Source: Nitrospirota bacterium
GTDB lineage: Bacteria > Nitrospirota > Nitrospiria > Nitrospirales > Nitrospiraceae
Assembly: GCA_023248295.1 (NCBI GenBank)
Contig: JAHFEU010000004.1
Span: forward strand, 1-37,404
Reading direction: 5' to 3'
Length of the DNA: 37,404 nucleotides
A program made the position numbers and the translations under genes. Under the pieces are notes generated by a model. That model saw only the letters and a list, made by a program, of their open reading frames with translations. It did not search any database and was not told where the DNA came from. Each line of letters opens with the position of its first letter. The stretch's first letter is position 1. Shown here in pieces: positions 1,929 to 17,698 of this stretch.

Positions 1929-2681
1929 TCATCCGCCACGCGATCGTGACACCCTTGAGGTGCGGGGCGCCGTCGCGATTGCGGCCTGCGACGAGCTGGC
2001 TCCTCTTTTGTCCAGGCCCATCCAGAATCCTTCCAGGTAATCCAAGACGGCCTTGACCCCGCGGCGGAAATCTTCCCGTTCAGCCGCAGACATCCCCTTG
2101 ACCCCATCCACCGCGGTGACGGCGTGCTCCATCGCCTCTTCATGCGTGGCTTCCAGCTCCCGATGGAAGGTGAAATAGGTGATGTCCAGGCCGGGATAGC
2201 GATGCGTCCGCAACTGCATGAGCCCCGGGATGAGATGATCCCACATCGTGATGGCCATGTTCTCGAGACCGAACGAGGCGCCGAGGGCCATCGCGTGATT
2301 TCCGCTGCTGTAAAGTTGTTCCATGCCATTGATGTAGGCCCGCGTGGAGGGCAGCATGGGCCGCGTCATGGCCTCGTGGACGTCGATTCCGACCGATCGC
2401 AGGAAGTCACGGTAGAGCAACTCATGGCGATTCTTGGTGCGCCCGTCGCCCAGCTCCGAGTAGAGCACCTTGGTGAGTTCGTCGGCCACGGCCTCGTCTT
2501 CCGTGTTGACGAGTTGCGCGACGAGGATCCTCGGGAAAAAGCGGGCAAAATTATAGAATTCGACGGCGAACTTGCGAAACTCCGCGTCAGTCAGCGCCCC
2601 GGTTTGAAAGCGATCGAGGTAAGGGTTGTTGATGGCCCCGTGCCGGAGGACAGAGTCACGCATCTCCTGATAAAACGACAT
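1929..2681 (-). CDS. Heme-oxygenase-like (TenA/PqqC/CADD fold) iron-containing redox enzyme family protein
   Basis: Likely start MSFYQEMRDS at 2681; helical protein with ELGDGRTKNRHELL, SFGLENMA and FHRELEATHEEAMEH (H-x3-E-x2-H) segments. Confidence 0.7.
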   Translation of the reverse strand: MSFYQEMRDSVLRHGAINNPYLDRFQTGALTDAEFRKFAVEFYNFARFFPRILVAQLVNTEDEAVADELTKVLYSELGDGRTKNRHELLYRDFLRSVGIDVHEAMTRPMLPSTRAYINGMEQLYSSGNHAMALGASFGLENMAITMWDHLIPGLMQLRTHRYPGLDITYFTFHRELEATHEEAMEHAVTAVDGVKGMSAAEREDFRRGVKAVLDYLEGFWMGLDKRGASSSQAAIATAPRTSRVSRSRGG

Positions 2682-2831
2682 CGCGCACCTCCTCGTCCCC
2701 CTGATAGACAGGATGGCTTCACGCTTGATGCCACCTGTCCCACGAATATGGTCAAATGATATAACTTTCTTATCAAATGTGCAAGAGATGATGGGTGTCG
2801 CAGCCACAAATACACGGTTTGTGGAATCAAA

Positions 2832-3007: not shown

Positions 3008-3589
3008 ATGAAAGGCTCGATGGGGATCGATCACATCACGCTGTGCGTCGAAAATCTCGAGGCGGCGGAATACCTGTTCACCAAGATCCTCGGGTTCGAG
3101 GTCATCTGGTCAGCCCGGGGCGTGGGGAGCGCCAAGTCGAGCATGGACACCATCGTGGTCCAGCGCGGCAATGCGAAGGTGGCCCTGATGCAAGGCAAGG
3201 ACAAGGCTGTGAAATCCCAGATCACCGAGTTCATCGAGAAGTACGGGCAGGGAGTCCAGCACGTGGCCATCGAAGTGGACGACATCGAGGCCGTTTCGCG
3301 CGAGTGGGAGGAGCGCGGCGTGAGGTTCAGTGGACCTCTTAAGGAGGGCCGGGACGGCTTCGGACCGCTTAAACAGCGCTTTACCTACCCGTTGTTCCCC
3401 GGGAGCGGCGTCTTTCTGGAACTCACGCAACGTCAGCATGGCAAAGAGAAGTCCAAGACGTTCGTGCGAGGGATCGTCGAGTCGCTCTACAAGGATATCG
3501 AGCGTGACCAGCTCGAAGGGGTGGAGCAGACGATCATCGACTTCGATGCAATGCCGGTGGAAGGTATACGGGGCAAGCGCTCTTCGTAA
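3008..3589 (+). CDS. Single-domain VOC/4-hydroxyphenylpyruvate dioxygenase-like protein
   Basis: IDHITLCV, GVQHVAIEVDDIEA, FGPLKQRFTYPLF, VFLELTQR, VESLYKDIERDQ; followed by homogentisate dioxygenase and FAH genes; GGAGG upstream. Confidence 0.75.
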   Translation: MKGSMGIDHITLCVENLEAAEYLFTKILGFEVIWSARGVGSAKSSMDTIVVQRGNAKVALMQGKDKAVKSQITEFIEKYGQGVQHVAIEVDDIEAVSREWEERGVRFSGPLKEGRDGFGPLKQRFTYPLFPGSGVFLELTQRQHGKEKSKTFVRGIVESLYKDIERDQLEGVEQTIIDFDAMPVEGIRGKRSS

Positions 3590-3738
3590 CACGATGGGGA
3601 ACGCGGGCCGATGAGTGATGACTAGTTCTTTTTCAGTTGCCAGTGCTGCAGGTTGAGTTAAAATGAACAACTCGAGCATGCAATTATCTGTACGGATTCG
3701 TCTGCTTTCTGCCTGTCGGACGAATGGGGAGGCCCGCG

Positions 3739-4848
3739 ATGTATCTGATGAAGAAAGGGACTGCTCCGAACCAGGCGCACGTCGGCATACCCGAAGGCCT
3801 GTACGAAGAAGAGCACGGCCGGCACGGGTTTAGCGGACCAGCCTCGCATCTGTACCGGCGTCATCCTCCGACCGGGTGGGTGCGCATCGACGGGCCGCTC
3901 CGGCCCCGTGCCTTTGCCTGCGCGGCCCTCCCCACCCCTGACCAGCGCTCGGCCGACGCCCGGCCTGTTGAGATTCTGCGCAGCCCGGATGTGCGGGTAT
4001 TCCTCTCTCGCCGGGCTGAAACCATGCCGCATTTCGTCCGGAATGCTGACGGCGACGAAGTGCAGTTCGTCCACGCCGGCCGAGGCCGGTTCGAGACGGA
4101 CTACGGGGTGCTGGCGTATGAGCCCGGCGACTATGTCGTGATCCCAAAGGGCACCACCTACCGGATCCTCGTGGACACGGGTCCGTCGCTGTTCCTGATC
4201 GTTGAAACGCCCACACCGGTTGAACTGCCGGATCGGGGTCTCTTGGGCCAGCATGCACTGTTTGACAAAGGCATCCTGACGGCGCCAGAGCCAGCGCCGG
4301 TCAGCGCAGAGCGGGACGAGCGGCGTGAATGGGAGGTTCGGATCAAGCGGGAGGGAGCCTACACACGGGTGTTTTATCCCTTCTACCCGATCGACGTGGC
4401 TGGCTGGAAGGGAGACCTGTGGGTCGCCAAGCTCAACGTGCGGGACTTCCGACCGGTGACCAGCGCTCGATATCACCTCCCTCCCAGCGTGCACGTGACG
4501 TTCCAGGCAGGGGGGGTCCTGATCTCCACCTTCGCTCCAAGACCGTTGGAGAGTGATCCTCAGTCGCTCCGGGTGCCGTTCTACCACCGGAACATGGACT
4601 ATGACGAAGTCCTCTTTTACCACGTGGGGGACTTCTTCAGCCGGGCTGGGATCCAGCCGGGCATGCTGACGCTGCATCCGCAGGGGATCCACCATGGCCC
4701 GCAGCCACAGGCCGTCGAGGCCAGCCGGTCCAAGACCCACACGGATGAAGTGGCGATCATGATCGAGTCGCGGCGGCCGCTCACAGTTCTGCCGGAACTG
4801 GAAACCGTCGAGGTCAAGGAATACGCCATGAGCTGGAGCAAACCATGA
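3739..4848 (+). CDS. hmgA: Homogentisate 1,2-dioxygenase family protein (cupin fold)
   Basis: MYLMKKGTAPNQAHVGIPEGLYEEEHGRHGFSGPASHLYRRHPPTGW, FYHRNMDYDEVLFYHVGDFFSR, TLHPQGIHHGPQP; ORF opens at 3724, ATG at 3739 preferred. Confidence 0.85.
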   Translation: MYLMKKGTAPNQAHVGIPEGLYEEEHGRHGFSGPASHLYRRHPPTGWVRIDGPLRPRAFACAALPTPDQRSADARPVEILRSPDVRVFLSRRAETMPHFVRNADGDEVQFVHAGRGRFETDYGVLAYEPGDYVVIPKGTTYRILVDTGPSLFLIVETPTPVELPDRGLLGQHALFDKGILTAPEPAPVSAERDERREWEVRIKREGAYTRVFYPFYPIDVAGWKGDLWVAKLNVRDFRPVTSARYHLPPSVHVTFQAGGVLISTFAPRPLESDPQSLRVPFYHRNMDYDEVLFYHVGDFFSRAGIQPGMLTLHPQGIHHGPQPQAVEASRSKTHTDEVAIMIESRRPLTVLPELETVEVKEYAMSWSKP

Positions 4849-5855
4849 AACTGGTCAGTTTTCGCGTTCAGACCCCTGTGGGGACTTTTGTCCGGGTAGG
4901 GGCTCTCCATGGGCAGACCATGATCGACCTCAATATGGCCTATGCGTGCCTGCTCGCTGAGCAGCGGGAGGCACAGCCCTACCGATTAGCGAACGCGGCC
5001 GTTCCGGCTGCCATGCTTGAGCTCTTGGAGGGTGGAACTTCAGGCATGGCCGCAGCTCGCCAGGCCTTCGACTATGCGGTCAAGCTAGGCAAGTCCGTGC
5101 GTGGGCCGGAAGGCGAGACTGTTGTGTATCCCTACGATTTCGCCCGGCCTCCTGAGGGCATCCGGGTGATCGCCCCGCTGCCGAACCCACCCTCGCTGCG
5201 CGACTTCCTCGCGTTCGAGGCCCACGTCGCCGCCACGTCGAAGAAGCGCGGACAGCCCATTCCGCCCGAGTGGTACAAAGCGCCGGTCTATTACAAAGGC
5301 AACCACCGCACGATCATCGGACCGGATGAGGCCTTGCCGTGGCCACTGGAGACCAAGAAGCTGGACTATGAGCTCGAGCTGGCCTGCGTCATCGGCCGCA
5401 AAGGTCAGGACATCTCCGAGCGCGATGCCCCGGACTATATCGCCGGCTATACGATCATGAATGACTTCAGCGCCAGGGATATCCAGTTCCAGGAAATGGC
5501 TTGCCGGCTCGGGCCTGCTAAGGGCAAGGATTTTGCCACGGCCATCGGCCCATGCCTTGTCACTCCGGATGAGATTCCCGATCTGAACGCCCTCACCATG
5601 ATTGCCAGGGTCAACGGCAAGGCCTGGTCCAAGGGGAGTTTTGGCACGATCCACTGGTCCTTCCCCCAGATGATTGCGCACGTGTCACGGGGCGAAGCCA
5701 TCTATCCCGGCGACCTGTTCGGCTCCGGGACGGTCGGCGGGGGGTGTGGGCTTGAGCTGGACCGGTACCTGAATCCAGGGGACGTGGTCGAGCTGGAGAT
5801 TCAGCCGATCGGGGTGTTGAGGAACCGCGTGGTCAACCAGGAGCCGAAGCCATGA
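4845..5855 (+). CDS. Fumarylacetoacetate hydrolase family protein
   Basis: LPNPPSLRDFLAFEAHV, YYKGNHRTIIGPDE, LDYELELACVIGRKG, NDFSARDIQ, GDLFGSGTVGGGCG; ATGA overlap with upstream gene. Confidence 0.9.
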   Translation: MKLVSFRVQTPVGTFVRVGALHGQTMIDLNMAYACLLAEQREAQPYRLANAAVPAAMLELLEGGTSGMAAARQAFDYAVKLGKSVRGPEGETVVYPYDFARPPEGIRVIAPLPNPPSLRDFLAFEAHVAATSKKRGQPIPPEWYKAPVYYKGNHRTIIGPDEALPWPLETKKLDYELELACVIGRKGQDISERDAPDYIAGYTIMNDFSARDIQFQEMACRLGPAKGKDFATAIGPCLVTPDEIPDLNALTMIARVNGKAWSKGSFGTIHWSFPQMIAHVSRGEAIYPGDLFGSGTVGGGCGLELDRYLNPGDVVELEIQPIGVLRNRVVNQEPKP

Positions 5856-6616
5856 GTGTGAACGTGAAGGTCGAGCGGGCAGAGCGCCTCGTGACGGATC
5901 TGCTAGAACGGCATCGCAGGCTCTACGACGGCCCCGACGTCGAATCGGAGCTGAAGAGCATCATCCGCGATTCCCCTCAATCGAAGCTGTCGGACTGGGA
6001 TGTCCACCGGATTCTCCGGACCTCCCGCTCGGTCTTCTTCGAGACCCACGTCGAGCTCGTGTCCGGTCACCACACCGCGACCTATCTCCGGTTCGAATCG
6101 ATCGCGCAGATCCCCCAGCTCATCAGGCTGATCGCGCGCGACATGGCCGATTGGATCCGCCAGACCTATCAGAAGGACCCCATCGTCGGCATCGTGGCCA
6201 CCGCTTCGGAGGCTCATCACCTGGCAGAAGGCGTCGCGGACCTGCTCCGTGACAATATGCGGCTGCGCGTGGTCTTGACCTCGTTCAATCGGGAGACCGG
6301 AAAGATCGGCACCGAGGTGGCCACCGGAGTCATCAGGTCCGGTGAACGGTTCGTCGTTCTGAACGATGTCACCACACGTGGGAACTGTGTCAGCAAACTG
6401 GGCCGGGTCGTCACCGACCACGGTGGCTTTCTGGCCGGCATGATGGTGTTTGCCCGCCGCGACAGCGGGCAATTTCCCTTGATGGACGAACTCACCGCAA
6501 AGTTTCCCTTCTATTACACGGCCGATCTCAACATGCCCCAGTGGGAGACCCAGAGCTGCCCGCTGTGCCGGGTGAAGAAGCCGTTGCTTTCGTGGAGGGA
6601 GTTGCCTGACTTTTAG
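5852..6616 (+). CDS. Orotate phosphoribosyltransferase-like protein with C-terminal CPLC motif
   Basis: PRTase-like FVVLNDVTTRGNCVSKLGRVV segment; ATGA overlap with FAH gene; C-terminal SCPLCRVKKP. Confidence 0.6.
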   Translation: MSVNVKVERAERLVTDLLERHRRLYDGPDVESELKSIIRDSPQSKLSDWDVHRILRTSRSVFFETHVELVSGHHTATYLRFESIAQIPQLIRLIARDMADWIRQTYQKDPIVGIVATASEAHHLAEGVADLLRDNMRLRVVLTSFNRETGKIGTEVATGVIRSGERFVVLNDVTTRGNCVSKLGRVVTDHGGFLAGMMVFARRDSGQFPLMDELTAKFPFYYTADLNMPQWETQSCPLCRVKKPLLSWRELPDF

Positions 6617-10941: not shown

Positions 10942-12537
10942 ATGGACCAACGCAAGGCACGGTTTACCTCCCTGTCCGGCTTGGAGATCGGGCGCGTCTA
11001 TTCAGCGGACGATCTCAAGGGGTGGAACGCTCATTCCGATCTCGGCGCTCCCGGCGAGTTCCCCTACACTCGCGGGGTCTATTCCACCATGTACCGCGGC
11101 AGGCTCTGGACGATGCGCCAGTTCGCCGGCTTTGGCACGGCGGAGGACACCAATCGGCGATTCAAGTATCTCCTCCAGCATGGCCAGACCGGTCTGAGCG
11201 TGGCCTTCGACATGCCGACGCTGATGGGACTGGATTCCGATGACCCCCTGGCCCGCGGGGAGGTCGGCCACTGCGGAGTGGCGGTCTCGTCGCTGGCCGA
11301 TATGGAGCGTCTGTTCGAAGGCATCCCGCTGGACCAGGTCACCACCTCGATGACCATCAACGGCCCGGCCGCGATCCTCTTCGCGATGTACCTGGCGGTC
11401 GCAGAACGGCGTGGGATTCCGGTCGCGCGCCTCGGCGGCACGCTCCAGAACGATATCCTGAAAGAATACATTGCGCAGAAGGAGTGGCTGTTCCCGCCTG
11501 AGCCTCATCTCCGACTGATCATCGATACCGTGGCTTACTGCGCACGCTCCATGCCGAAATGGCACCCGATCAGCATCAGCGGCTACCACATCCGCGAGGC
11601 CGGCTCCACCGCGGTGCAGGAATTGGCGTTCACCCTCTACGATGGGCTGACCTACGTGGACGCCGCGGTCAAGTCCGGACTAAACGTGGACGCCTTCGCG
11701 CCTCAGCTCTCATTCTTCTTCAACGTGCACAACGACCTGTTTGAGGAGATCGCGAAATTCCGGGCCGCCCGGCGGCTGTGGGCACGCGAAATGGAGCAAC
11801 GCTACCATCCCAAGGACCCGCGGTCGCTTCAGCTCCGGTGCCACGCCCAGACCGCCGGTTGCTCGCTCACGGCGCAGCAGCCCCTGAACAACGTGGTCCG
11901 CACGACCCTCCAGGCCCTCGCAGCCGTGCTGGGCGGAGCGCAGTCGCTGCACACCAATTCGATGGATGAGACGCTGGCGCTGCCCACCGAGGATGCGGTC
12001 AAGCTGGCGCTGCGGACCCAGCAGATCATCGCCCATGAGAGCGAAGTCACCAATACCGTGGATCCGCTGGGTGGGGCCTATTACGTCGAGTCGCTGACGA
12101 ACCGCTTGGAAGAAGGGGCGCGCGAGTACTTCCGGAGACTGGATCAGATGGGCGGGATGGTCCGGGCGATCGAGCAGGGATTCCCGCAGCGGGAAATCCT
12201 GGACGCCTCGCTTCGGTACCAGAGCGAGGTGGAGCGGAAAGAGCGGGCCATCGTTGGCGTCAACGAATACGTCGAGCGCAGCGAACCGCCCATTCCGACC
12301 CTGAAGATCGGTCCGGAAGTGGAACAGTCCCAGGCGAAACGTCTGGCCGACCTGCGGTCCCATCGCGATTCCTTCAGAATGGCCGGGACCCTGCAGGCCC
12401 TGCAGGAGGCTGCTGCGGGAGACGAGAATCTGATGCCCTATTTGATCGACGCGGTGAAGGCCCAGGCCACCTTGGGCGAGATCTGCGCGGCGCTGAAAGA
12501 AGTGTTCGGGACGTATCGGGAGCCCGTGGTGTTGTGA
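10942..12537 (+). CDS. Acyl-CoA mutase large subunit (MCM family; residues suggest isobutyryl-CoA mutase)
   Basis: [81 protein letters not shown]; no B12 domain, ends after catalytic barrel region. Confidence 0.9.
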
Positions 12538-13829: not shown

Positions 13830-14675
13830 ATGAGGCTCGGTTCATTTGAAATCTATCCTGTCGCGGACGGCCGGTTTCGGCTGGACGGCGGGGCCATGTT
13901 TGGCGTGGTGCCGAAGGTGCTGTGGGAACGGTGCTGCCCCGCGGACGAGCAGAACCGAATCAATTTGGCGCTGACCTGCCTGCTGATCCGGGCACACGGG
14001 AAGAACATCCTGGTGGACACCGGCCTCGGCGGGAAAGGAGACGCCAAGTTTCACCAGATGTACGCCGTGGACCGCACCCCGCCACTGCTGGAATCCTTGA
14101 AGGAACTGGGGCTGGCGCCCGAAGATGTGCACATGGTCATCAACACGCACCTGCACTTTGATCATGCCGGTGGCAATACCGTCTCCGAGGACGGCGGACT
14201 GCTCCCTGCGTTTCCGAAGGCTAAATTTTTCGTTCAGCGCGGCGAGTATGATCAGGCGGTGGCGCCGAACGAACGAACCCAAGCCAGCTACCGCCACGAG
14301 AACATCACACCGTTTGAGTTGGTGAAACAGTGGGAGTTTCTTGAAGGGGACACCGAGCTCTGCCCCGGGGTGTCGGTGATGGTGACCCCCGGACACACGC
14401 GACATCATCAGTCCGTGAAGATCGAATCCGAGGGCCAGGTGGCCGTCTTCCTCGGAGACCTGATCCCCACCGTCTCCCACCTCCCGCTGCCCTACGTGAT
14501 GGGGTACGACCTGTACCCGATGCAGTCGATCGAGACGAAGCGCTGGCTCCTGCACCGCGCCTTGGAGGAAGAGTGGCTCCTCGTGTTCGAACACGATCCC
14601 AAGGTCCAGATGGGCCACGTGCGGAAGGATATCGAGGGCAAGTATTTTCTTAAACCACTCGGGGGGGAGCGGTGA
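13830..14675 (+). CDS. MBL-fold metallo-hydrolase
   Basis: [12 protein letters not shown] (HxHxDH), [19 protein letters not shown]. Confidence 0.92.
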
Positions 14676-15085
14676 GAGCCGCCACGCGAACGAAACCGCT
14701 TCGGATCCTCATCGGCAAGGTCGGGCTCGATGGCCACGATCGGGGGGTCAAGCTGGTGGCCCGGGCGCTCCGGGATGCCGGAATCGAAGTCGTCTATACC
14801 GGCCTCCACCAGACCCCCGAGCAGGTGGTGACCACGGCCATTCAAGAGGACGTGCAGGCCATCGGCCTGAGCGTGCTCTCCGGCGCGCACAATTACCTAT
14901 TCCCGCGCGTGATGGAGCTGCTGAAGGAACAAGGGGCGGATGAGATCGTCGTGTTCGGGGGCGGGATCATTCCCGGCGAGGACCTCCCGCGGCTGAAGGC
15001 GGCCGGTGTACGGGCGGTGTTCCCGCCTGGTTCCTCCATGCACGAGATCGTCGCCTTTGCGAAGGGGCTCTGGCCTGGACCATGA
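14672..15085 (+). CDS. Acyl-CoA mutase small subunit, cobalamin (B12)-binding domain
   Basis: GTG start; [20 protein letters not shown] (DxHxxG base-off motif), [27 protein letters not shown]; overlaps MBL gene. Confidence 0.92.
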
Positions 15086-16365
15086 GACCGGTGTACATGA
15101 TCAGCGGCGGGATTACCAAATTCGCCAAGGTCCATCCCGACAAAGACTTCCGGGTGATGGTCAAGGAAGCGTACGACTACGCCCTCCGCGACGTGCCCCG
15201 TTTTTCCAACACCATGATTGATGGCGCAGTCGGTTCGTATTTCTCCGATCACTTCACCCGGCAACTGAAAGCGGCCAGTATGGTGCAGGACTACCTGGGC
15301 CTCTGTCCCAAGCCGTCGAAGCGAATTGAAGGCGGGGGAGCCACCGGCGGCCTCTGCTTCCAGTCCGCCTGGGAGGCTGTCGCTTCCGGGCGGATGAACT
15401 GCTGCGTCGCCTTCGGCTTTGAGACCATGTCGCGAGTCAATACCTGGAAGGGGAACGAGTTCATCGCGCTGGCCTCGGATACCAACTTCGACTTTCCGGT
15501 GGGCGGGTTCTACAGCGGCTACTATGCGATGATGGTCCAGCGCCACATGCACGAGTTCGGCACGACGGTCGAGCAGATGGCCATGGTGTCGGTCAAGAAC
15601 CACGCCAACGCGCTCTATAATCCTTACGCTCAGAAGGCCAAGCGGCTGACGATCAAGCAGGTGAGGGAGTCCCCGATGGTGGCCACCCCGCTCACGATGG
15701 AGGATATCTGCACGATGTCGGATGGCGCGGCGGTGTGCGTGCTGGCCTCCGAGGAGGTGGCCCGAAAGGTCTGCGACCGCCCCGTGAAGATCACCGGCGT
15801 GGGCTCCGGCTCGGACGCCATGCGCATGGCCGATCGGCCGCACGGCAAGGTGATTCTTCTGCCGCACGAACAGGAACGCGATTATGCCCATCTCAGGTAT
15901 CCCGGCGTGCACTCCTTCCGGGGAGGCCGCATGGCGGCGAAGCTCGCCTACCAGATGGCCGGCATCCGAAAGCCCGGGGAAGAACTCAGCTTTGTGGAGC
16001 TGCACGATGCCTACACCTCCTCCGAGATCCAGACGTACGAGGACCTGGGGCTCTGTCGATACGGGGAAGGCGGGGGGTTCGTGGAAAGCGGCATTCCGTT
16101 CATGCCGGGCGTGGACTATGGTCTGGAGCTGCCCAAGCAGGGACGCCTGCCGGTGAATCCCTCCGGCGGCTTGCTGGCCTGCGGGCATCCGGTCGGCGCC
16201 ACAGGCTTGATGCAAGCCGTCTTCGCGTTCTGGCAGTTGCAAGGAACCATCGGCAAACATCTGGGGAACGACACCCTTCAGGTGAAGAACGCCAAGCGCG
16301 GCCTGATCCACAGTCACGCCGGCACCGGGACGTATATTACGGTATCAATCCTTGAGGCGATGTAA
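15082..16365 (+). CDS. Thiolase-fold protein (SCP-x/acetyl-CoA acetyltransferase-like) with atypical active site
   Basis: [60 protein letters not shown] at position of canonical CASGG. Confidence 0.85.
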
Positions 16366-16368
16366 CCC

Positions 16369-16414
16369 CCACCCTGACCCTCCCCCTTGAATGGGGAGGG
16401 AAGGGTGAGGGTGG
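16369..16414. repeat. Intergenic C/G-rich hairpin (CCACCCTGACCCTCCCC...GGGGAGGGAAGGGTGAGGGTGG)
   Basis: CCCTCCCC (16378-16385)/GGGGAGGG (16393-16400) and CCACCCT/AGGGTGG outer arms. Confidence 0.7.
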
Positions 16415-16430
16415 AGAGCGAGGACTCACG

Positions 16431-16946
16431 ATGGAACCAAAGGGCACAGTGGTGCTGAGCGTGGACCCGCTGATTATTCACGACCATTACGAAATCGACT
16501 ACCGTCATAGCTATGCGGAAGATTCGCCATTCTTCATCGGGCTGAGCAAAGGAAGACTGCTGGGGTCCCGCTGCACGGCCTGCCGCTACACCTTCGCCAC
16601 CCCTCGGTCCCATTGCATGGAGTGCGGCGCGCCGACCGCATGGCACGAACTGCCATTGACCGGCCGAGTGCATACCTACACCACCTGCCATTACGGCGGC
16701 GAAGCGTTCCTCAAGGAGACGCCCTTTACCCTGATCCTGGTGGAGTTCGATGGTGCCGACACCTTGTTTCTGTCCCGTCTGAAGGGTGTGGAGCCAGGGG
16801 GGCTGCGGATCGGTCTCCCGGTGGTGGCCCGTTTCGCCAAGACCCCTTCCTTCAAAGTGACCGATGTCTGGTTCGAGCCTGCGGACCCCCACCATCCCAC
16901 CACCCGTTGCACCCAAGCAAGCAACGGGTACCCGCCCAGAGCATGA
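16431..16946 (+). CDS. DUF35/OB-fold acyl-CoA-associated zinc-ribbon protein
   Basis: GSRCTACRYTFATPRSHCMECG zinc ribbon followed by OB-fold LTGRVHTYTTCHYGGEAFLKETPFTLILVEFDG; directly after thiolase-fold gene. Confidence 0.88.
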   Translation: MEPKGTVVLSVDPLIIHDHYEIDYRHSYAEDSPFFIGLSKGRLLGSRCTACRYTFATPRSHCMECGAPTAWHELPLTGRVHTYTTCHYGGEAFLKETPFTLILVEFDGADTLFLSRLKGVEPGGLRIGLPVVARFAKTPSFKVTDVWFEPADPHHPTTRCTQASNGYPPRA

Positions 16947-17698
16947 CCAAGCGCCAGGGCCGAGAGGATCCCGCTTCTCTGGCCAACCGGGTCGAGGCCG
17001 GTGATGTCCGGGCCGTCTCCCGTCTGATCACGCTGCTGGAGAACCGTGAGCCGGACGGGATCACGGCGCTGAAGAAGCTGCGGCCGCCCACCCGGCGTTC
17101 GCCCGTGATCGGGATCACGGGCTATCCGGGAGCCGGCAAAAGCACCCTGATCGACCAACTGGTGAGAGCCTACCGGCGGCAAGGCAACAAGGTCGGGATC
17201 GTGGCGGTGGATACCTCCAGTCCACTGACGGGAGGAGCGATCCTTGGCGACAGGATCCGGATGCAGGATCATTCATCCGATGCGGGGGTCTTCATCCGCA
17301 GCATGGCCACGCGTGGGCAGCACGGAGGGCTGGCGCGCTCCACCTTCGAGGCCGTGCAGGCCTTGGAGGCGGCTGGCTACGACCTTATTCTGGTCGAGAC
17401 CGTTGGCGTGGGACAAGCCGAGGTGGACATCGCCCGTGTCGCCCAGACCGTCGTGGTGGTCGTCGTGCCGGGTCTGGGAGACGAGGTGCAAGCGATGAAG
17501 GCGGGCCTCCTCGAGGTGGCCCACATCGTGGCGGTCAACAAGGCCGATCATCCAGGAGCAGACGCCACGATCCGGGATTTCCAGGAATGCGTGCCCCGGG
17601 TGATCCGCACGGTTGCCGTGAAGGGCGAAGGCATTGAGGAGCTCGTCGAGGCCATCGCCCAGCACCGACGGAGCGTTGACCTCAAAGGCAAGGCCTAA
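16943..17698 (+). CDS. MeaB/ArgK-like P-loop GTPase (acyl-CoA mutase chaperone), short form
   Basis: VIGITGYPGAGKSTLIDQL, VDTSSPLTGGAILGDRIRMQ, VETVGVGQAEVDIA, PGLGDEVQAMKAGLLEVAHIVAVNKAD; ATG at 16943 overlaps DUF35 stop. Confidence 0.92.
   Translation: MTKRQGREDPASLANRVEAGDVRAVSRLITLLENREPDGITALKKLRPPTRRSPVIGITGYPGAGKSTLIDQLVRAYRRQGNKVGIVAVDTSSPLTGGAILGDRIRMQDHSSDAGVFIRSMATRGQHGGLARSTFEAVQALEAAGYDLILVETVGVGQAEVDIARVAQTVVVVVVPGLGDEVQAMKAGLLEVAHIVAVNKADHPGADATIRDFQECVPRVIRTVAVKGEGIEELVEAIAQHRRSVDLKGKA

Follow-up and report, generated by a model that had tools for sequence, protein, structure and literature searches.

A probable single-domain 4-hydroxyphenylpyruvate dioxygenase encoded beside homogentisate-pathway homologues in Nitrospirales

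The locus and its gene order

The window (the whole stretch of DNA analysed, 37,404 nucleotides of a Nitrospirota contig) contains a short operon that begins with a gene for a VOC-domain protein. The 193-aa open reading frame, which starts with ATG, was found with the coordinates and length given in the first-pass annotation. The genes considered here are as follows.

3008-3589, + strand: single-domain HPPD-like VOC protein, 193 aa (C-domain part of TIGR01263, orthologues, HMS/HPPD fold match)
3724-4848, + strand: HmgA-like protein of the homogentisate 1,2-dioxygenase family (TIGR01015, 75.5 bits; Pfam HgmA_N, 43.4 bits)
4845-5855, + strand: fumarylacetoacetate hydrolase (FAH) family protein (Pfam FAA_hydrolase, 201 bits)
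5852-6616, + strand: PyrE-like (phosphoribosyltransferase-like) protein, travelling with VOC-HmgA-FAH

Orthologues of the VOC protein with 72-88% identity to it occur in many Nitrospirales genomes. Conservation was read from 54 distinct Nitrospirales sequences, the window's own included, in which nearly all complete matches are ~180-195 residues long. The window ORF is neither a chance ORF nor a local truncation.

The HmgA and FAH genes, which overlap by 4 bases, had been placed directly downstream of the VOC gene; this order is right, and both products are homologues that score below the NCBIfam equivalog cut-offs. The HmgA-like protein lies far below (75.5 of 511 bits), phmmer searches with it matched homogentisate dioxygenases of the PDB, and the FAH-family protein reaches 73 of 375 bits. 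The linkage to homogentisate dioxygenase and fumarylacetoacetase expected of an HPPD is thus represented by homologues of both, and their adjacency is conserved. Indeed, the order VOC-HmgA-FAH-PyrE-like-E1alpha-E1beta is common to the relatives whose stretches extend that far. No maleylacetoacetate isomerase was found in the window genome and, since HmgA and FAH are also divergent, the lower pathway may be unusual.

Several neighbours deserve mention. The PyrE-like gene stays with VOC-HmgA-FAH even at detached modules (L113, L114), with no obvious role in tyrosine breakdown. A divergent haem-oxygenase-like gene precedes the VOC gene in most relatives; in the window, positions 1929-2807 (- strand) encode, in divergent orientation to the VOC gene, a haem-oxygenase-like iron protein (Pfam Haem_oxygenas_2) weakly similar to BesC/CADD. 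Further downstream, positions 10942-12537 and 14672-17698 (+ strand) hold a methylmalonyl-CoA mutase module composed of the large subunit, the B12 subunit and a MeaB-like GTPase.

Family assignment and predicted active site

HPPD (4-hydroxyphenylpyruvate dioxygenase) is the textbook two-domain enzyme of tyrosine breakdown and the target of triketone herbicides and of nitisinone. Its usual form is one chain of ~350-400 aa with two VOC domains, and the window protein has 193 aa and one domain. Against NCBIfam, it scores 89.9 bits with the HPPD model TIGR01263, below the curated cut-off of 277, and 61.9 bits (residues 7-141) with the methylmalonyl-CoA epimerase (MCE) model TIGR03081, below the cut-off of 114.95; an annotated epimerase reaches 159 bits on the latter model. 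The match to TIGR01263 spans positions 157-263 and 300-348, which belong to the C-terminal catalytic domain. Because the block of ~36 residues between them (positions 264-299) is also missing, the protein is smaller than a bare HPPD C-domain. Aligned to the two-domain HPPD and hydroxymandelate synthase (HMS) proteins of plasmid records, the missing block is the stretch from the 'P..YY' to the 'LLQ.FT' motif.

In profile-profile comparisons, the strongest matches were single-domain proteins from rhizobia and Vibrio (1.5e-29), followed by the HPPD C-domain (E 2.8e-27 over 161 columns, C-terminal helix included), with MCE (3.4e-15) and the HPPD N-domain (2.9e-11) both well behind the latter. Similarly, Foldseek with an AlphaFold model of the protein (pLDDT 78.6) placed HMS and HPPD on top with query TM-scores up to 0.74, compared with 0.50-0.56 for epimerases. 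The grouping with epimerases or glyoxalases that would have spoken against the first annotation was therefore not seen, fold and profiles both siding with HPPD/HMS and away from epimerases. In the domain tree, the VOC protein joins HPPD-C with a support of 88/88, and the tree tests retained the alternatives that place it with MCE (p-AU 0.148) or with the NRPS-cluster proteins described below (0.137), or that join HPPD-N with HPPD-C (0.201). Judged from these sequence comparisons, the closest family of the single VOC domain is the catalytic C-terminal domain of HPPD/HMS.

The residues of the predicted active site and tail map as follows, with counts referring to the 54 sequences.

3032-3034, + strand: codon of His9, predicted Fe(II) ligand, aligned with the first His ligand of the HPPD C-domain
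3218-3220, + strand: codon of Gln71, counterpart of Gln293 of A. thaliana HPPD (54/54)
3257-3262, + strand: codons of Gln84, counterpart of Gln307, and of His85, predicted Fe ligand (His85 at 3260-3262; both 54/54)
3374-3382, + strand: codons of Gln123-Arg124-Phe125, counterpart of Gln379-x-Phe381 (Gln123 and Phe125 54/54)
3419-3421, + strand: codon of Glu138, predicted Fe ligand (54/54)
3461-3514, + strand: HPPD-like C-terminal helix region, residues 152-169 (HPPD/HMS tail alignment)

The iron ligands of A. thaliana HPPD are His226, His308 and Glu394 (PMC6750108). The placement of His9, His85 and Glu138 in the first-pass annotation proved right, the three residues aligning with the His/His/Glu ligands of the HPPD/HMS C-domain; His9 is found in 53/54 sequences, the remaining match beginning past residue 9. 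The HPPD-like tail that had been noted is also present in the HPPD/HMS alignment, and the AlphaFold model has a helix at residues 154-169. With Phe136, the invariant counterpart of A. thaliana Phe392 (54/54), all counterparts of the HPPD catalytic set Gln293/Gln307 and Gln379/Phe381/Phe392 are present in 54/54 sequences.

The substrate network is altered. In A. thaliana HPPD, the catalytic hydrogen-bond network consists of Ser267, Asn282, Gln307 and Gln293, Phe381 provides stacking with the substrate, and the substrate phenol is bound by Asn423 (PMC6750108). Replacement of Asn282 in the plant enzyme (N282A) lowers the efficiency ~160-fold, and N423A lowers the affinity ~7-fold and kcat by 50% (PMC6750108). 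Of the three positions Ser267, Asn282 and Asn423, none is kept: the first has a conservative change to Thr48 and the second is Met61, both invariant in the set, and the counterpart of the third, residue 156, is Thr in 51/54 sequences and Ile in the window protein. A Variovorax HPPD encoded near a homogentisate dioxygenase has Thr and Val at the Ser267 and Asn282 positions and keeps Asn423, the loss of which is confined to the Nitrospirales proteins among those aligned. The first-pass annotation had noted neither the missing ~36-residue block of the C-domain nor the changed counterparts of Asn423 and Asn282, nor the mutase-linked alternative and the NRPS-cluster relatives treated below.

In summary of its likeness to HPPD (TIGR01263; EC 1.13.11.27), the window protein has in common with it the C-terminal VOC domain, the His/His/Glu site, the SQI, QH, QxFT and F-x-E motifs, the C-terminal helix and an operon with HmgA and FAH homologues, but it has neither the N-terminal domain nor the insert and is about half as long. 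HMS (PDB 2r5v, 7yvv) is the best fold match and has the same catalytic domain type and iron ligands; however, HMS is a two-domain protein, and the window operon contains ring-cleavage genes instead of hydroxy acid oxidase and NRPS genes.

Distribution in Nitrospirota and competing functions

Among 396 Nitrospirota genomes, the VOC gene was found in 52, and an HmgA orthologue in 52/52 of these (2x2 test, p ~1e-64, shared ancestry being ignored). HmgA without the VOC gene was limited to a partial match in a fragmented genome (G369) and a relative of 36% identity in G273. A canonical HPPD elsewhere in the genome would have weakened the first annotation; no second HPPD was found in the window genome, a draft that is 88.8% complete, and no two-domain HPPD in any of the 52 VOC-bearing genomes, many of them 99-100% complete.

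Only one surveyed genome, G273, encodes an HmgA that is clearly different, and here a two-domain HPPD is present (TIGR01263, 253 bits over positions 5-349, slightly under the 277-bit cut-off). It lies in one operon with FAH, HmgA (33% identical to the window's), a flavin-reductase-like gene, a thiolase and an acetoacetyl-CoA ligase (800 bits vs a cut-off of 521), and the FAH of this operon is 50% identical to the window FAH over 228 aa. In the sampled genomes, the two-domain HPPD and the single-domain protein thus alternate in one slot of the pathway and do not occur together. Of the functional evidence for a single-domain HPPD, this replacement carries the most weight, and it gives independent support to the minimal HPPD proposed in the first-pass annotation. 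The canonical-type tyrosine operon of G273, a member of the Nitrospirales, lies at 2768-9767 of L112, with a distant haem-oxygenase-like relative nearby at 1918-2739.

We conclude that the window gene probably encodes a naturally single-domain HPPD, a new form of a known enzyme. By analogy, the single VOC domain, equivalent to the HPPD C-domain, would hold Fe(II) through His9, His85 and Glu138, and 4-hydroxyphenylpyruvate would chelate the iron by its 2-oxo acid group. O2 would then drive oxidative decarboxylation of the substrate, and the resulting ferryl-oxo species would hydroxylate the ring, with a shift of the side chain, to give homogentisate. Ring opening by the HmgA-like protein and hydrolysis by the FAH-family protein would lead towards fumarate and acetoacetate. 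The single-domain protein is a probable homodimer.

The altered counterparts of Asn423 and Asn282 would also suit a single-domain HPPD/HMS-type iron dioxygenase with a different aryl-pyruvate or 2-oxo acid as its substrate, or with a mandelate in place of homogentisate as its product, the HmgA/FAH homologues then processing a homogentisate-like compound. The distance of HmgA and FAH from the curated models points the same way, as do the nearest relatives outside Nitrospirales, which lie in NRPS clusters with gene content suggesting hydroxymandelate-type chemistry. We consider such an enzyme unlikely, since the pairing with HmgA and FAH homologues is invariable, the related HmgA/FAH pair of G273 accompanies a two-domain HPPD and an acetoacetyl-CoA ligase, and no mandelate oxidase, alpha-hydroxy acid oxidase, aminotransferase or NRPS gene was seen among the cluster genes examined. 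It is still less credible, indeed highly improbable, that the protein is a decayed or truncated, inactive HPPD. Only a C-domain is left where two domains are normal for HPPD, but neither the ligands nor most of the pocket residues vary among the 54 sequences, at identities down to 72%, and the uniform length of nearly all complete matches also argues against decay; this candidate was rejected on the grounds of conservation. A split HPPD with its N-domain encoded elsewhere was likewise rejected, a six-frame search of the genome with the full HPPD profile giving no N-domain match at E <= 0.001.

A role as methylmalonyl-CoA epimerase for the mutase, whose gene lies 7 kb downstream, was given serious consideration, as the two genes share a cluster and the searches brought up no canonical epimerase. 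The VOC protein is the best match to the epimerase model (61.9 bits over residues 7-141) in the window genome, where none attains the curated cut-off despite the mutase module. The mutase is present in 86 of the 396 genomes, including 52/52 with the VOC gene, and the tree test retained the VOC protein with MCE (p-AU 0.148). TIGR03081 epimerases resemble the window protein in their single VOC domain, in which two His and one Glu occupy equivalent places of the fold. Epimerases have a fourth metal ligand, however, which is Gln or Glu (Gln65 in P. shermanii, 1jc4/1jc5); the compared epimerases have Glu or Gln at the aligned position, which is Ala59 in 54/54 of our sequences. The HPPD motifs and the C-terminal helix were not found in epimerases either. 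Moreover, the mutase cluster with its E1/E2 genes occurs without the VOC gene in G396 and G039, VOC-HmgA-FAH-PyrE forms a separate, oppositely oriented operon in G282 and G398, and the true epimerases of the phylum are short proteins adjoining the mutase (G261, G263). The VOC gene thus appears to move with HmgA-FAH rather than with the neighbouring mutase module, which shares its cluster and all 52 of its genomes but also occurs without it. An epimerase is very unlikely, and this identity was rejected because the protein has an HPPD tail and no fourth ligand and because there are mutase clusters devoid of the VOC gene.

Single-domain relatives and origin

The survey of the VOC protein by sensitive methods covered Nitrospirota genomes, plasmids and phages. 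The phage records searched gave no match. A scan of genome contigs for short exact peptide patterns matched in Nitrospirae only, such patterns being poorly informative for other phyla. In plasmids, tblastn detected single-domain proteins of 32-36% identity in NRPS clusters of Sinorhizobium, Rhizobium, Bradyrhizobium, Paraburkholderia and Vibrio. Most of their genes adjoin PLP aminotransferases, and Vibrio also has an Ldh_2 oxidoreductase there; one S. meliloti protein is a fusion with a type II chorismate mutase, in the company of pabB, prephenate dehydrogenase and an aminotransferase class IV gene. The loci, on rhizobial, Paraburkholderia and Vibrio plasmids, are L055 (8677-9459), L056 (8917-11778), L057, L058, L059 and L060. 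Like the window protein, these relatives (33-36% identical to it; for example WP_102300553.1 and the chorismate mutase-VOC fusion WP_088196659.1) have one domain, no insert, and HPPD/HMS-like motifs and tail; unlike it, they keep the Asn423 counterpart and sit in an NRPS context with an aminotransferase. Their gene content suggests analogues of hydroxymandelate synthase that serve (hydroxy/amino)phenylglycine-type residues. One-domain HPPD/HMS-like proteins therefore extend beyond Nitrospirales.

The domain phylogeny is compatible with more than one origin of the single-domain form, alternative groupings being retained by the AU values. The domain tree and the absence of the insert in both groups allow a pre-duplication origin. 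The Nitrospirales protein would then be an active, undoubled HPPD from a lineage older than the VOC-domain duplication behind classical HPPD, and the rhizobial and Vibrio proteins would be one-domain hydroxymandelate synthases from that layer; we hold this scenario to be possible, if rather doubtful. If it is right, 4-hydroxyphenylpyruvate chemistry requires neither the N-terminal domain nor the insert. The results also allow the N-domain to have been lost secondarily.

Our literature search, made without most subscription journals, found no paper on a single-domain HPPD or HMS. No catalytic function has been reported for the HPPD N-terminal domain (PMC6750108). This domain may be unneeded, since the half-size HPPD proposed here lacks it and yet retains the iron site and most of its pocket. 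If confirmed, a natural one-domain HPPD would be a direct test of N-domain dispensability and a small scaffold for studying the HPPD/HMS mechanism. In addition, nitrite-oxidising Nitrospirales would then have an HPPD overlooked by the curated HPPD models, with a bearing on the reach of HPPD herbicides to these nitrifiers; a recent paper on tembotrione and nitrifying guilds refers to HPPD in ammonia oxidisers (PMC13131219).

Finally, two other VOC proteins were encountered in the survey. The product of G015:C1:767236-767619 (L090/L123), from a genome that also has the VOC gene, scores 74.7 bits with the epimerase model and falls inside the epimerase group on the tree, on a long branch. The 205-aa protein of L122 (G000:C217, about 8.8-9.1 kb) matches general glyoxalase models of Pfam only, with none in NCBIfam at E <= 1e-8; it has an HPPD-reminiscent LRQVFT...ELTERH segment, and similar partial matches occur in many Nitrospiraceae.
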